Below, piece after piece: positions 1-34,117 of a DNA stretch of 34,117 nucleotides (positions within the stretch are counted from its first letter, which is position 1; the number at the start of each line of letters is the position of its first letter). The translations under genes and the position numbers were made by a program. The DNA comes from Candidatus Borrarchaeota archaeon (GTDB lineage: Archaea; Asgardarchaeota; Sifarchaeia; Borrarchaeales; Borrarchaeaceae), in assembly GCA_016840315.1 (NCBI GenBank), contig JAEOSO010000006.1, forward strand, positions 1 through 34,117, given 5' to 3'. The notes under the pieces are model-generated. The model did not search any database and was not told where the DNA came from. It was given only the letters and a program-made list of their open reading frames with translations.

Positions 1-244
1 GAATCTGTGCTGCCTTTTCTATGGCGTCATCAATGGGCACTTTTTTGAGTTTCCCATTTTCTCTTATCATTGGAGCTGTGATTCTGTGAGACACATCATT
101 GGCTGACATGAATTTTGCTGTGCCGAGGACACAGGCGTTTACAGTTTCCACAATTTTGCCTTTTTCTACATATATTTCAATATCGTCGCATAAACATCCA
201 CAAAAAGGACAGATGACGTCTTTTACAACAGTTTGTTTGCTCAT
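1..244 (-). CDS. fwdB: Formylmethanofuran dehydrogenase subunit B, N-terminal part (runs off the left edge)
   Basis: Reverse-strand translation MSKQTVVKDVICPFCGCLCDDIEIYVEKGKIVETVNACVLGTAKFMSANDVSHRITAPMIRENGKLKKVPIDDAIEKAAQI; CPFCGxxCDD start typical of FwdB/FmdB. An in-frame GTG at 254-256 could be an alternative start. Confidence 0.85.
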   Translation of the reverse strand, partial: MSKQTVVKDVICPFCGCLCDDIEIYVEKGKIVETVNACVLGTAKFMSANDVSHRITAPMIRENGKLKKVPIDDAIEKAAQI

Positions 245-253
245 CTTTTGGTT

Positions 254-593
254 CACTGATCCCCCTCAAGGAAACCCCTGCCCTTGAGGGTGGGCAGGAA
301 TTGAGGGTGTTTTTCACTTGTACTAGGGTCTCTCCCCTTTTAAATATATGTTCTGGGATAGAGGTACGTGGTCTAAAGGCACACCTCTCGGAGAAGTGGA
401 AACGGTTAATGACCTCAAGAAGGATGAAGGAGGAAACTGGTATAGCCCGACTCTAGATGAGGATTACTGGGCTGGGCTGCGGTAAACACGCCCATATGGT
501 AGCGTGCGATGAGGTTGAAACTCTTCTGCAAAGAAGAGGACTGAGACCAAGTACAGCTACAAGCCTCACTGCTTTCGCGTGAGGTAGTTTACT
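254..593 (-). mobile_element. ~340-bp protein-less IscB/HEARO-like (IS200/IS605-type) element, copy 1; probably omega-RNA-like on the minus strand
   Basis: Near-identical to 1142-1480. Minus strand begins CTACCTCACGCGAAAGCAGTGAGGCTTG (CCTCAC/GTGAGG hairpin, GAAA loop), the same architecture as the IscB omega-RNA 5' hairpin at 19484. Internal hairpin CTCTTCT/AGAAGAG (521-538). Right-end palindrome CCCTCAA...TTGAGGG. Confidence 0.7.
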
Positions 594-596
594 TCC

Positions 597-1007
597 TCAC
601 TTTTTGAGCGGCATTATTTTTTTCATTAGTGCAGTTGGGGTTAGTACCTTCTCATTTAGAGCAACTTCAATGACGGCTTCGACCCCCTTGTAAGATGGCA
701 TTCCTGTTGAATCAGTCTCCGGATTGACTACCACGTTTGCGTATAGTCCCATTGGAATAAATATAATTCCTCTGTGTGGAGCTTGGGTTGATTCAATTCC
801 GCTTACTAATATTGCTCCATAATCAGTCTTAACTTTCACAGTATCGCCATCGTAAATTCCTAGTTCTTTCATGTCATCCGGATCGATATCACACACAGCC
901 GTGCTAAGAACGTAACCTCTAGTGAGTTTTTCACCCTCTAAACTGACTCCTTGCTCAATAGATCGACCGGTAAGGAGGGTGACCTTTTTTGACTTTTTCA
1001 TTCCCAT
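597..1007 (-). CDS. fwdD: Formylmethanofuran dehydrogenase subunit D (molybdopterin dinucleotide-binding)
   Basis: 136 aa; LLTGRSIEQGVSLEGEKLT...IYDGDTVKVKTDYGAILV...QAPHRGIIFIPMGLYANVVVNPETDSTGMPSYKGV matches the FwdD pattern. Confidence 0.9.
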   Translation of the reverse strand: MGMKKSKKVTLLTGRSIEQGVSLEGEKLTRGYVLSTAVCDIDPDDMKELGIYDGDTVKVKTDYGAILVSGIESTQAPHRGIIFIPMGLYANVVVNPETDSTGMPSYKGVEAVIEVALNEKVLTPTALMKKIMPLKK

Positions 1008-1141: not shown

Positions 1142-1480
1142 TCATTGATCTCCTCAAGGAAGCCCCTGTCCCTTAGGGTGGGGGGAATTGAGGGTGTTTT
1201 TCACTTGTACTAGAGTCTCTCCACTTTTAAATATATGTTCTGGGATATAGGTAAGTGGTCTCAAGGCACACCTCTCGTAGAAGTGGAAACGGTTAATGAC
1301 CTCAGGAAGGATGAAGGAGTAAACTGGTATAGCCCGACTCTAGATGAGGATTACTGGGCTGGGCTGCGGTAAACACGCCCATGTGGTAGCGTGCGATGAG
1401 GTTGAAACTCTTCTGCAAAGAAGAGGACTGAGACCAAGTACAGCTACAAGCCTCACTGCTTTCGCGTGAGGTAGTTTACT
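1142..1480 (-). mobile_element. ~340-bp protein-less IscB/HEARO-like element, copy 2
   Basis: Direct repeat of 254-593, about a dozen substitutions by eye; same hairpins and same boundary sequences (CTACCTCAC... to ...GAGGAGATCAATGA on the minus strand). Confidence 0.7.
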
Positions 1481-18253: not shown

Positions 18254-19471
18254 ATGGCAGAAACACCAGAACCATTTAAAAGACTACTCGCACTTCTCAG
18301 TGAAGTTGAAGAGATCGAATTAGAAAATTTTAAGCTTGAGGCAGAAGAATTAACTCTATCACTTACTCGCGCAATGATGCCAGCGATAATGCCTGCTATG
18401 CCGGCACCAGAAATGGCAAAACCTGGATTACCGACATTGCCAGCATTTCAGGAAGTGGAATTCAAATCTCCAGCCATAGAATACCCTGGAGAAATCGTTG
18501 AGGTACAACTTGGCGCAACAAAGTCTGAGGGTGGAACACGGGAATACGTAGTGAAACTTGGCGGTCAAAAAATCATGCCATTCTATCGCTTTCTTGGCCC
18601 AACGCCGAATCCTCCAGTAGTTTCGCTTGACGTCTTCGACATGCCTCTTAAACTTGCAAAAGCTGTTCGCTCCAACATAGAGGATGTCATGGAAGATCCA
18701 GCAGAATGGGCGAAAAGATGCATTAATAAATTCGGAGCAGATATGGTTACGATTCATTTGATCTCAACCGATCCCTATATCAAAGACACACCCGTCAAAG
18801 AGGCTGCAAAAGTTGTTGAAGATGTTCTACAAGCAGTGAAATGCCCGATAATTATTGGAGGTTCTGGAAACAAAGATAAGGATCCAGAAGTATTAACTAA
18901 GGCGGCAGAAGTTGCTGAAGGCGAGCAGGTATTGATTAATAGCGCAGATTTGCATACCTACAAGCCAGTTGTTGAAGCCGCGAAGAAGTATGGCCATATC
19001 GTACTCAGTTGGACACAACTGGACATAAACAATCAAAAAAAGCTTAATACTTTGATCATGGATGAAGGCTTCCCTAGAGAAAGAATGATTATTGATCCGA
19101 CCACGGCTTCACTAGGATACGGTTTAGAGTATACCTATTCAATTATGGAAAGAATACGCCTTGCAGCACTCAAGGGAGATGAAATACTTCAGATGCCTAT
19201 GAGTTCTGGTACTACCAACGCTTGGGGAGCTCGAGAAGCGTTTCTTAGTAATAAGAAATGTAATGAATTAGGTCTCCCATGGGGCGATGTGGCCTTAAGA
19301 GGTCCTATGTGGGAGACTCTGTCTGCTATGTCCGTGATGTTAGCTGGGGCAGATCTTCTGATGATGATGCATCCAGGCGCAGTTGCTGGCTTTAAAGCAC
19401 TTGTGAAGGCATTTACAGACGATACATCCAGAGATATGCCACCAATTGGAAACTGGGTGACAATGAAGTGA
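18254..19471 (+). CDS. cdhD: Corrinoid iron-sulfur protein small subunit (CODH/ACS delta)
   Basis: 405 aa; GGTREYVVKLGGQKIMPFYRFLGPTPNPPVVSLDVFDMP...IIGGSGNKDKDPEVLTKAAEVAEGEQVLINSADLHTYKP. Confidence 0.92.
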   Translation: MAETPEPFKRLLALLSEVEEIELENFKLEAEELTLSLTRAMMPAIMPAMPAPEMAKPGLPTLPAFQEVEFKSPAIEYPGEIVEVQLGATKSEGGTREYVVKLGGQKIMPFYRFLGPTPNPPVVSLDVFDMPLKLAKAVRSNIEDVMEDPAEWAKRCINKFGADMVTIHLISTDPYIKDTPVKEAAKVVEDVLQAVKCPIIIGGSGNKDKDPEVLTKAAEVAEGEQVLINSADLHTYKPVVEAAKKYGHIVLSWTQLDINNQKKLNTLIMDEGFPRERMIIDPTTASLGYGLEYTYSIMERIRLAALKGDEILQMPMSSGTTNAWGAREAFLSNKKCNELGLPWGDVALRGPMWETLSAMSVMLAGADLLMMMHPGAVAGFKALVKAFTDDTSRDMPPIGNWVTMK

Positions 19472-19479
19472 GGGGTCAA

Positions 19480-19744
19480 TTACCCCACCCTAAAGGGACG
19501 GGGCTTGTTTCGTGAGGAGCAAGAGTAATTAGTTGATTAGCCTAAGAGAGGTCAGGTATATGACGATATCTACGTTATCAGCAGAGTTAAAGAACACACC
19601 AAGGGATGCTTCTCTAGTCCCTTGCTCTGTAAATGGTGGTTTAAACAGAGAGGAAACTCTCAGTGATCATCATAGAGTACTGACTGATAACTTTGGCGAA
19701 GAGAACCTACCTACTTTAAAGCGATTTAAAGGAGGCGATAGGAC
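19480..19744 (+). ncRNA. IscB omega-RNA / HEARO RNA
   Basis: Located directly 5' of iscB; CCCC-a-CCC-TAAA-GGG-ac-GGGG hairpin; CAAGGGA(19600-19606)/TCCCTTG(19618-19624); GAGAG-GAAA-CTCTC(19648-19661); SD aaaggaggcgat before iscB. Confidence 0.75.
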
Positions 19745-20950
19745 TTGAGAGTACCTATCTATGTGTTAAACATGAGAGAGCAACCTCTCATGCCTACCAC
19801 GCAACGCACAGGAAAGAAGTTATTACACGAAGGAAAGGCAAAAGTTGTTCAGAGATGTCCTTTTACCATTCAGTTGAACTATGCCACTGGAGAAACTAAG
19901 CAACCGATTAAACTCGGAGTGGATATAGGATATACGAACATTGGATTTAGTGCCAAGACTGATAAGTTAGAGGTCATCAGCGGGACGCTGGCCTTACGCA
20001 AGGACGTCTCTAAAAAGATAGAAGAAAGATGGATGTATCGTAGAACTCGTAGAGGCAGATTAGGGTATCGACCTCCTAGATTTAATAACCGAACTTGCCC
20101 TGAAGGATGGTTAGCCCCTAGTACTCAGCACAGGTTAGATTCTCATATTCGATTAGTCAACAATAAACTTAAAACGCTACTACCGATAACCTACAAAAAG
20201 GTAGAAGTAGCCAATTTCGACGCTCAAAAAATACAGAACCCAGAAATTAAAGGAGTAGAATATCAGCGAGGCACACTTCAGGGCTACGAAGTGAGAGAGT
20301 ATCTGTTAGACAAGTGGGGACGTAAATGTGCCTATTGTGGTAAAACAAACGTCCCTTTAGAAGTAGAGCATATTATACCTAAAAGTAGAGGTGGAACGAA
20401 CAGAGTGTCTAATTTGACATTAGCATGTAAAAAATGTAATTTAAAGAAAGGAGAAAAGACAGCAGAAGAGTTTGGTTATCCTACCATCCAGCAACAGGCA
20501 AAGAAATCACTTAGAGCACCTACCTGTATAAATAGCATTCGTTGGAGGATAGTGGAGCAATTAGCAGCAGAGCATACTTACGGATACGTCACCAAATACG
20601 AGCGTAACAAATTAGGGTTGGAAAAGTCGCATATCAACGATGCGTTTGTCATTGCTGGAGGAACGAATCAAGAACGATGCCGAGCGTATGAAGTTATTCA
20701 AGTGAGGCGTAATAATCGTTCTTTGCAGAAGAATAGAAAAGGGTTTAAGCCGTCTGTTAGGAGACAGCGATACGAATTACAACCTTATGACCTTGTAAAA
20801 TATAACAATAGAACGTATAGAGTAAAGGGAGTTCATTGTCTTGGAAAACGGGTTATTTTAAAAAATGTTAATGGAAAAGACAAAAGTGTAGCTATCAAAA
20901 AAGTGGAGTTGATTAAATATGGAAAAGGGTTATTATTCAACTTATGTTAG
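19745..20950 (+). CDS. iscB: IscB RNA-guided nuclease (RuvC + HNH)
   Basis: PLMP motif (EQPLMPTTQRTGKKLL), RuvC-I LGVDIGYTNIGFSA, bridge-like RRTRRGRLGYRPPRFNNR, HNH CAYCGKTNVPLEVEHIIPKSRGGTNRVSNLTLACKKCNLKKG, RuvC-III SHINDAFVIAGG. TTG start. Confidence 0.92.
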   Translation: MRVPIYVLNMREQPLMPTTQRTGKKLLHEGKAKVVQRCPFTIQLNYATGETKQPIKLGVDIGYTNIGFSAKTDKLEVISGTLALRKDVSKKIEERWMYRRTRRGRLGYRPPRFNNRTCPEGWLAPSTQHRLDSHIRLVNNKLKTLLPITYKKVEVANFDAQKIQNPEIKGVEYQRGTLQGYEVREYLLDKWGRKCAYCGKTNVPLEVEHIIPKSRGGTNRVSNLTLACKKCNLKKGEKTAEEFGYPTIQQQAKKSLRAPTCINSIRWRIVEQLAAEHTYGYVTKYERNKLGLEKSHINDAFVIAGGTNQERCRAYEVIQVRRNNRSLQKNRKGFKPSVRRQRYELQPYDLVKYNNRTYRVKGVHCLGKRVILKNVNGKDKSVAIKKVELIKYGKGLLFNLC

Positions 20951-21007
20951 CTTCTACGCCTCTTTCCTCTCCACCTTAAAAGGAAGGAGTCTCCAGAGGC
21001 GATTTCA

Positions 21008-22420
21008 ATGAGCAAAAGATTGAAACCTTTAGATATTTTCAAATATCTACCGAAAACAAACTGCAAGATTTGTGGCGAAGAAACATGCATGGCGTTCGCC
21101 ATGAAACTAATTGAACGAGAAACCGAACTAGCTTTGTGCACTCCTCTTTTCGATGAATCGAAATACCAAGAAAACAAAGATACTTTAATTGTGATGTTGC
21201 GACCACCAGTTCAACCAGTTAAAATTGGTACTGGTGAAAAATCGGTTATTGTTGGTGGTGAGGAAGTAGTATATAGACACGAGTTAACCTTTTACAACGA
21301 AACAAGGATTTTTATTGATGTACACGATGAAATGGACTCAAAGGAACTGACTGAACGTGTAAATTTTGTAGACGAATATACTGTATTCAGAATTGGTGTG
21401 CACCTTAAACTCAATGGAATTGCAGTGCGATCTGTTTCAAATGATCCTGCTAAATTTGCAAAAACTGTTGAAGAAATCCTCAAACTAGCAGATTTGCCTC
21501 TTGTCCTGTGTACGTTTGATCCTAAAATAATGAAAGCGGGTCTAGATGCCGCAAAGGGTAAGCGGCCTCTCATCTATGCAGCAACAGTTACAAATTGGGA
21601 AGATATTGCGAAACTAGCGATGGAGTATAATTGTCCTGTTGCAGTCTTTTCGACCGATCTAACAACATTGAATTCCATAGCAATTACACTTCAAAAAGCA
21701 GGAATTGACGAACTCGTACTCGATCCTGGCACTTACTTCGGTGAAAATATTGGGGCTACATTAAATAATTACACCCTGCTCAGAGTAGCTGCAATTGAAG
21801 CAGGTGCAGAAAGCGTTGGATTTCCATTAATGGGAGTCCCAGCTACAGTTTACTTAGAAGGTGATAAAGGTACTGAATCTGCATGGAATGAAACAATTGT
21901 TGGATCAATGTTGATTGATCGATTCGCAAGCATGTTGATTGTTCACAATGTGGAGCTTTGGTCACTGTTAGCGTTATTAACCTTGCGACAGACGATTTAC
22001 ACTGATCCGCGAATTCATCCCGCCGTGGACGCTGGTCTAATCAAAATTGGAAATCCAGGCGTGGACTCACCAGTGTTCCTTACAACAAACTTTGCCTTGA
22101 CATTCTACACTGTAAAAACAGATCTTGAGCAGGCAGCTATAGATAGTTGGTTATTAACCGTGGATACTGAAGGTATTGGTGTAGAAAGTGCAGTAGCTGG
22201 CGGACAACTCAATGCAGGCGCAGTAGCAGATTTGATTAAGGAGACGGGTCTTGAAGAGAAAGTGAAGCATAGAAAACTTATCATTCCCGGTATGGCCGCT
22301 CGTATCAGTGGAGAGACAGAAGATAGTACCGGGGGTTGGCAGATTTTGGTAGGACCGCGCGATTCATCTGCGATTCCCAAGTTTTTAAAACAGAACTGGG
22401 AAGCTGAGGCTACCGCCTAA
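21008..22420 (+). CDS. cdhE: Corrinoid iron-sulfur protein large subunit (CODH/ACS gamma)
   Basis: 470 aa; PLDIFKYLPKTNCKICGEETCMAFAMKLIERE, LADLPLVLCTFDPKIMKAGLD, FFLTTNFALTFYTVKTDLE-like region. Confidence 0.92.
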   Translation: MSKRLKPLDIFKYLPKTNCKICGEETCMAFAMKLIERETELALCTPLFDESKYQENKDTLIVMLRPPVQPVKIGTGEKSVIVGGEEVVYRHELTFYNETRIFIDVHDEMDSKELTERVNFVDEYTVFRIGVHLKLNGIAVRSVSNDPAKFAKTVEEILKLADLPLVLCTFDPKIMKAGLDAAKGKRPLIYAATVTNWEDIAKLAMEYNCPVAVFSTDLTTLNSIAITLQKAGIDELVLDPGTYFGENIGATLNNYTLLRVAAIEAGAESVGFPLMGVPATVYLEGDKGTESAWNETIVGSMLIDRFASMLIVHNVELWSLLALLTLRQTIYTDPRIHPAVDAGLIKIGNPGVDSPVFLTTNFALTFYTVKTDLEQAAIDSWLLTVDTEGIGVESAVAGGQLNAGAVADLIKETGLEEKVKHRKLIIPGMAARISGETEDSTGGWQILVGPRDSSAIPKFLKQNWEAEATA

Positions 22421-33777: not shown

Positions 33778-34117
33778 TTGAAATGTCTCTGGAGACTCCT
33801 TCCTTTTAAGGTGGAGAAGAAAGAGGCATTTAGACTAACATAAGTTGAATAATAACCCTTTTCCATATTTTACCAACTCCACGTTTTTAATGGCGACACT
33901 TGGATTTTTTCCTTTAGGATTTTCCAACACAACCCGTTTTCCGTAGCAATGGACGCCTTTTACTCTATATGTTCTATTATTATACTTGACCAGGTCATAA
34001 GGTTGCAACTGGTATTTCTGTCTCCTAATAGATGGTTTGAATCCTTTTCTGTTCTTCTGTAGCGAACGATTATTGCGTCTCACTTGAATCACCTCATAAG
34101 GTCTGCAGCGTTCTTGG
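33778..34117 (-). mobile_element. Second IscB element, right-end portion (continues past the window edge)
   Basis: Minus strand ends with ...CTCCACCTTAAAAGGAAGGAGTCTCCAGAGACATTTCAA, matching the right end of the 19480-21008 element. Confidence 0.8.
33835..34117 (-). CDS. iscB: IscB C-terminal part (truncated by window edge)
   Basis: QERCRPYEVIQVRRNNRSLQKNRKGFKPSIRRQKYQLQPYDLVKYNNRTYRVKGVHCYGKRVVLENPKGKNPSVAIKNVELVKYGKGLLFNLC, near-identical to the first IscB C-terminus. Reading continues upstream of the GTG used in the ORF track. Confidence 0.9.
   Translation of the reverse strand, partial: QERCRPYEVIQVRRNNRSLQKNRKGFKPSIRRQKYQLQPYDLVKYNNRTYRVKGVHCYGKRVVLENPKGKNPSVAIKNVELVKYGKGLLFNLC

Follow-up and report, generated by a model that had tools for sequence, protein, structure and literature searches.

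A 336-bp mobile insertion separates fwdD from fwdB in a Borrarchaeum/Sifarchaeum-type Asgard archaeon. The explanation that best accounts for it, and one that we hold with high confidence, is a non-autonomous element of the IS200/IS605 group that arose when a TnpB-encoding element lost internal sequence and that is best classed as a palindrome-associated transposable element (PATE). We analyzed a window of 34,117 nucleotides, the whole stretch of DNA in which this junction lies. By FwdD, the nearest named genomes are those of Sifarchaeum marinoarchaea (92% identity), Borrarchaeum weybense (91%), and B. yapensis (86%), which makes the host a close relative of these organisms. The window was compared with the host's own genome (G000), with three congeners (G001, G002, and G003), and with a wider set of 59 genomes that includes these four. 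The features discussed below are as follows, with LE and RE denoting the left and right ends of the element.

Positions 1-244, minus strand: 5' part of fwdB; proposed start ATG 244-242, with an in-frame stop between GTG and ATG in G001
Positions 253-256, plus strand: TCAC target/TAM motif, which reads GTGA on the strand of the genes; it lies outside the element and is unduplicated
Positions 257-592, plus strand (that of the ancestral tnpB/guide RNA): PATE copy 1, 336 bp, LE at 257 and RE at 592
Positions 263-307, plus strand: LE subterminal imperfect palindrome by DNA folding (z -1.0), also in the 13-copy consensus
Positions 338-350, plus strand: TATA-like TTTTAAATATATG at the position of the putative tnpB promoter; promoter function putative
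Positions 373-412, no strand assigned: most conserved internal block, made of short tnpB pieces (conservation 0.95-0.98 per 20-nt bin)
Positions 441-592, plus strand: RE segment of 152 nt, homologous to the tnpB 3' end and resembling a guide-RNA (omegaRNA) scaffold
Positions 563-585, plus strand: RE subterminal hairpin by folding, 7 nt before the element end
Positions 593-612, plus strand: putative 20-nt guide made of host sequence antisense to the end of fwdD, proposed from TnpB biology as given in passages of PMC8612924 and PMC10278001
Positions 597-1007, minus strand: fwdD (ORF), with relatives in 42 of the 59 genomes searched, own genome counted
Positions 1142-1145, plus strand: TCAT adjoining PATE copy 2; the G002 empty site has GTGA here on the gene strand
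Positions 1146-1479, plus strand: PATE copy 2, 334 bp, upstream of fwdD; empty site in congeners

A PATE between fwdD and fwdB

On the minus strand, the fwdD stop codon TGA (599-597) is followed by the four nucleotides GGAA (596-593), the element from 592 to 257, GTGAACCAAAAG, and ATGAGC, the beginning of fwdB; the sequence directly after the element reads GTGAACCAAAAGATGAGC. An initial annotation had described an element of about 340 bp starting 3 to 4 nt after the fwdD stop, and this geometry is real, with the spacing now set at 4 nt and the size at 336 bp. It had also noted a GTG in frame with fwdB (256-254) and a GAGG 7 nt 5' of it, both of which we find in the sequence. It had described the element as oriented like its host genes; the tnpB/guide-RNA strand of the element is the plus strand, opposite to the fwd genes.

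In all three congeners, fwdD and fwdB are joined directly, without the element. The site in G003 reads ...AAAAAATGAGGAAGTGAACGAAAAGATGAGC, and the window minus the element reads AAAAAGTGAGGAAGTGAACCAAAAGATGAGC, with no duplicated bases. The boundaries given above rest on the agreement of the joined flanks with the empty-site type of the three congeners and on the match of the element ends to those of TnpB elements. Empty sites could have placed the insertion elsewhere; instead, the empty fwdD-fwdB site matches the joined flanks.

Copy 2 is 97% identical to copy 1 over 297 nt. Its site is empty in the same three congener loci, where the flanks differ from those of the window by point changes: G002 reads GATGAGTGAAAG, the window reads GATGA-element-ATGAAAG, and the G of GTGA appears to have changed in the window. 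By the same empty-site comparisons, neither copy is flanked by a target-site duplication. The two copies stand on either side of fwdD as direct repeats, and their mutual identity (95-97%) exceeds their identity to the best congener copy (91%), a pattern that suggests a local hop.

Copies spanning most of the element length number 17 in the four congeneric genomes (two in G000, three each in G001 and G002, and nine in G003), to which one degenerate copy can be added. Among the 59 genomes, which include these four, only two others yielded matches, both partial. For site statistics, we used 16 distinct insertion sites, leaving out the degenerate copy (G003:C101) and one of the orthologous pair G001:C8/G003:C19. 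Another apparently orthologous site holds a full PATE in G002 (L052; G002:C211:6686) and only an RE hairpin remnant of about 29 nt in G000 (L018; G000:C129:17593). At the left-end junctions of loci L050 and L245, the element edge copies host bases of the opposite flank (AAGGGAAATGC and AGAGGAT, respectively); at L050, this copy restores the Shine-Dalgarno sequence and the ATG.

A TnpB element of the related kind is present in the host genome. G000:C77 carries an element of about 1.27 kb that shares both ends with the PATE and has between them a 403-aa TnpB, which scores above cut-off for Pfam PF07282 and PF01385 and contains GVDLG, MEDL, and SDLN (RuvC motifs) together with a C4 zinc ribbon. 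Copy 1 was compared with eight TnpB elements from the genomes searched, and all eight matched it in three places: at the right end (151-152 nt at 74-91% identity), at the left end (43-93 nt at 77-85%), and in the middle, where 18-20 nt match an internal tnpB stretch at 94-95%. Conservation within the PATE is highest in the block at 373-412, although this block lies outside both ends and the scaffold.

At 336 bp, the element is too short for a transposase, and it contains no ORF of at least 100 aa. Its ends have the organization of a PATE: they are shared with an IS605-type element (the eight TnpB elements, at both ends), palindromes lie near both termini, and a fixed short target, TCAC in 13 of 14 copies, adjoins LE. 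The LE palindrome is imperfect, and its fold is not exceptional for one copy. No terminal inverted repeats were seen by eye, as the plus strand begins TGATCCCCCT and the other strand GTAAACTACC. A Y1 transposase gene is present in G001 and G003, two of the four congeneric genomes; the one in G001 is adjacent to a tnpB with a similar right end, closing with a hairpin and TAGTTCAC. None was found in G000 or G002, whose assemblies have a completeness of 77% and 69%, respectively. Mobilization would depend on a Y1 transposase supplied in trans, which would excise the PATE and insert it as single-stranded DNA 3' of TCAC.

The passages on Haloquadratum walsbyi PATEs (HqIRS families) in PMC3119063 describe elements of the same kind, which lack a transposase, have near-terminal palindromes, use a short target oligonucleotide without duplicating it, and in some cases arose from IS605-type elements by deletion of the core. 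The family described here differs in its Asgard host lineage, its sequence, and its TCAC target, which is complementary to the GTGA of the Shine-Dalgarno sequence; those passages do not mention the geometry at start sites. Among open-licence articles, surveyed mostly by listing, we found none that deals with PATEs or IS605 elements located at start sites.

Target motif and initiation of fwdB

The LE is readable in 14 distinct copies. Immediately to its left on the plus strand, 13 of them have TCAC and one has TCAT; this count additionally drops G001:C7 and G003:C37, in which the left end is lost or degenerate. The eight TnpB elements have TCAC in six cases and TCAT in one, with one unclear. 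The 16S rRNA tail in G001 is GGATCACCTCCT, from which the Shine-Dalgarno consensus is AGGAGGTGATCC, and this consensus contains GTGA. On the gene strand, TCAC reads GTGA.

The initial annotation had noted that two independent insertions, in two core C1 operons, fall between a Shine-Dalgarno sequence and a start. We estimated the background from 400 kb of G001 with a simple gene caller of our own, defining near-start as -4 to +16 nt of a called sense start. Only 5.1% of all 2234 GTGA sites are near-start, a share that reaches 20.3% (106/521) outside genes, where most lie 8-12 nt before the start or at the start itself. With the same caller, 6 of the 16 distinct PATE sites are near a sense start, which differs from all GTGA sites (P = 1e-4); against extragenic GTGA alone (P = 0.09), a strong insertion preference for starts is not shown. 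Counting by hand two possible GTG starts (G002:C237 and G003:C31) would give 8 of 16, a figure that we did not use, as the background was not hand-called. The next gene is in the sense direction at 13 of 15 PATE sites, omitting G002:C237, which the caller placed inside a gene, versus 69.5% in the background (P ~0.12 by hand arithmetic, not significant). The target motif, which reads GTGA in the gene direction, and the loss of insertions inside genes thus account for most of the start proximity, and a dedicated targeting of starts need not be assumed, since about a fifth of extragenic GTGA sites lie at starts anyway. There may be a modest extra preference. The near-start insertions would mainly be survivors, genic ones having been lost and extragenic GTGA being enriched at ribosome-binding sites.

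Could the family instead actively prefer translation starts as a safe-site strategy, with its Shine-Dalgarno-like tip under selection because it lets the host gene still be translated? The element edge on the minus strand, the LE tip, is CTTGAGGGGGATCA and does resemble a Shine-Dalgarno sequence. The six near-start sites speak for this; in addition, the predicted anti-Shine-Dalgarno pairing is kept or raised by insertion at such sites, the two possible GTG starts going from -5.4 to -11.5 and from -0.8 to -9.9, and some IscB elements of the genus also end in CTTGAGGTGATCTT followed by ATGA (L295). However, six or more of 16 is within reach of the extragenic background, the GAGG belongs to a palindrome that a transposase would need, at 2 of the 16 sites the neighboring gene is antisense and presents its 3' end, and copy 2 is not at a start, as fwdD begins 138 nt further on. 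We therefore regard active preference as improbable and retain the target motif with purging as the main account.

At fwdB itself, the start codon determines how the insertion is read. G001 has GTG AAC TAA, with a stop in the fwdB frame, before ATG AGC; hence, GTG is not a conserved start, and initiation at GTG 256 is disfavored. The annotation would have been undermined had FwdB homologs never extended to the GTG, and this is the situation in one of the three congeners. FwdB most likely starts at ATG 244-242, for which the GTGA 12 nt upstream has a spacing common in the G001 background. With this start, GTGA belongs to the Shine-Dalgarno signal, which the insertion splits. The claim of a protein-less element that supplies GAGG in the fwdB initiation region thus survives, but its placement cleanly between Shine-Dalgarno sequence and start does not.

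Insertion at TCAC would leave GTGA, part of the Shine-Dalgarno sequence (AGGAGGTGATC), attached to the gene, and the element edge (CTTGAGG..GATCA) would replace the lost upstream part. With both in place, FwdB is probably still translated from ATG 244. The predicted anti-Shine-Dalgarno pairing for fwdB is -13.6 kcal/mol in the empty leader and -12.3 kcal/mol in the occupied one (random 19-mers, -3.8; called starts, -6.6); occupied leaders at the five remaining near-start sites have energies of -8.5 to -11.5 kcal/mol. Because the energy at fwdB barely changes, the insertion is probably nearly neutral for initiation.

Host RNA and IscB/HEARO alternatives

Two copies beside fwd genes and a stably folding 3' part of the plus strand (z -2.67) might point to a host regulatory RNA or riboswitch-like leader of the fwd operon, but the site is empty in 3/3 congeners, the 16 distinct loci are mostly beside non-fwd genes, no Rfam match was obtained at E <= 1, and the fold lies on the strand opposite to fwd; the empty sites and dispersed copies rule this reading out for practical purposes.

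The initial annotation had implied that the fwdD-fwdB element is a protein-less copy of the one between cdhD and cdhE. The latter carries a HEARO RNA and an IscB-type protein (RRXRR and HNH domains) and lies directly before the cdhE ATG, so the likeness in position is genuine. Congeners have GAGGGATGAACAATGAGC or similar between cdhD and cdhE, which places this element, too, between the Shine-Dalgarno region and the ATG, at a similar RTGA site, but the pre-insertion bases cannot be fixed exactly. Each of the two elements lies directly 5' of an RTGA in an initiation region, and they also have a GAGG-like edge in common. They are nonetheless of different families, one derived from TnpB and the other of the IscB/HEARO type: no HEARO match was found at positions 1-1700 of the window even at E <= 1, a repeat search revealed no similarity between the fwdD-fwdB element and 19471-21009, and the former matches TnpB elements from end to end. 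Descent from an IscB/HEARO element (RF02033), one of which occupies a start elsewhere in this window, 5' of an ATGA, can be set aside almost with certainty.

Other HEARO-bearing loci were seen along the way. HEARO RNAs abound in these genomes: G000, of 1.7 Mb, and G001 have 36 matches each, some of which score below the cut-off of the family. The elements at L295, L310, L314, and L320 end in CTTGAG(A/G)TG... before ATGA; in the scan for this end pattern, 21 of 30 loci had no match, and the match at L313 is due to chance. A C-terminal fragment of a second IscB-type element occupies 33787-34117, truncated by the contig end and followed by ATTTCA and ATGA. A second right-end hairpin type, GTGAACTACCTCACGC, occurs in many copies, one of them 22 nt from a HEARO start (G001:C7:413632).

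The right end as a possible guide RNA

The right end that the PATE retains folds at -53.2 kcal/mol (z -2.67), and its hairpin ends at 585, within 10 nt of the scaffold end at 592, as in omegaRNAs. The TATA-like box at 338-350 is largely conserved among 13 copies, and a similar TTTAAATAG precedes tnpB in G000:C77 (other strand). A consensus of 26 right ends (16 PATEs and 10 TnpB-type) has 35 pairs, 7 of them with two-sided changes. Among the 16 PATEs alone, which are related to one another, 96.4% of cells pair, and there are 22 double-change cells versus 9.0 in shuffled and 1-4 in slid alignments. Ten of the 14 readable PATEs keep an open tnpB C-terminal frame (2/16 PATE rows and 1/10 TnpB-type rows were unread), so part of this conservation may be left over from coding ancestry. 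Helix 3 switches from C-G to G-C in eight rows, all of them PATEs; since several neighboring bases changed too, segment exchange is possible.

Three features are shared with IS1341-type IS200/IS605 TnpB elements and their reRNA/omegaRNA (ISDra2, PMC8612924; PMC10278001): an RE hairpin 7 nt from the end, a scaffold-like RE, and a target motif adjoining LE. In contrast to those elements, the PATE has no tnpB left and would need both TnpB and TnpA in trans. Its right end may be a TnpB guide-RNA scaffold behind a TATA-like box, making the PATE a protein-less guide-RNA gene. The box would start a plus-strand RNA near the most conserved internal block, the promoter-like box and scaffold would likely still make a guide RNA, and TnpB from elsewhere could use it to protect the insertion. 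In ISDra2, the joint between target motif and flank left by excision is the target for TnpB with the right-end RNA (PMC8612924). If the fwdB copy behaves likewise, its guide would direct TnpB to TCAC-TTCCTCACTTTTTGAGCGGC, the empty site of this same copy. We can thus tentatively picture a minimal selfish guide-RNA gene consisting of LE, promoter, and scaffold, without protein, that depends on the transposase and TnpB of others, whose edge serves as a ribosome-binding site and whose TCAC target leads it to initiation regions without silencing them, the guide of the fwdB copy being antisense to the fwdD end; as a whole, this picture is possible but doubtful.

If it is true, the guide of the fwdB copy would cut only chromosomes that lack the insertion. 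The family provides naturally occurring TnpB-type scaffolds that encode no protein and whose sites are empty in sister species; with these, one can ask whether non-autonomous elements persist with the aid of guide RNAs acting in trans. For the host, the target is complementary to a part of the Shine-Dalgarno sequence that stays with the gene, and the element edge would restore the rest, which gives a simple, testable reason why ribosome-binding sites in core operons can tolerate such insertions. The element is a new PATE member with an instructive target-site coincidence, and the ideas of a guide RNA and of an element edge acting as a ribosome-binding site are those most worth testing.
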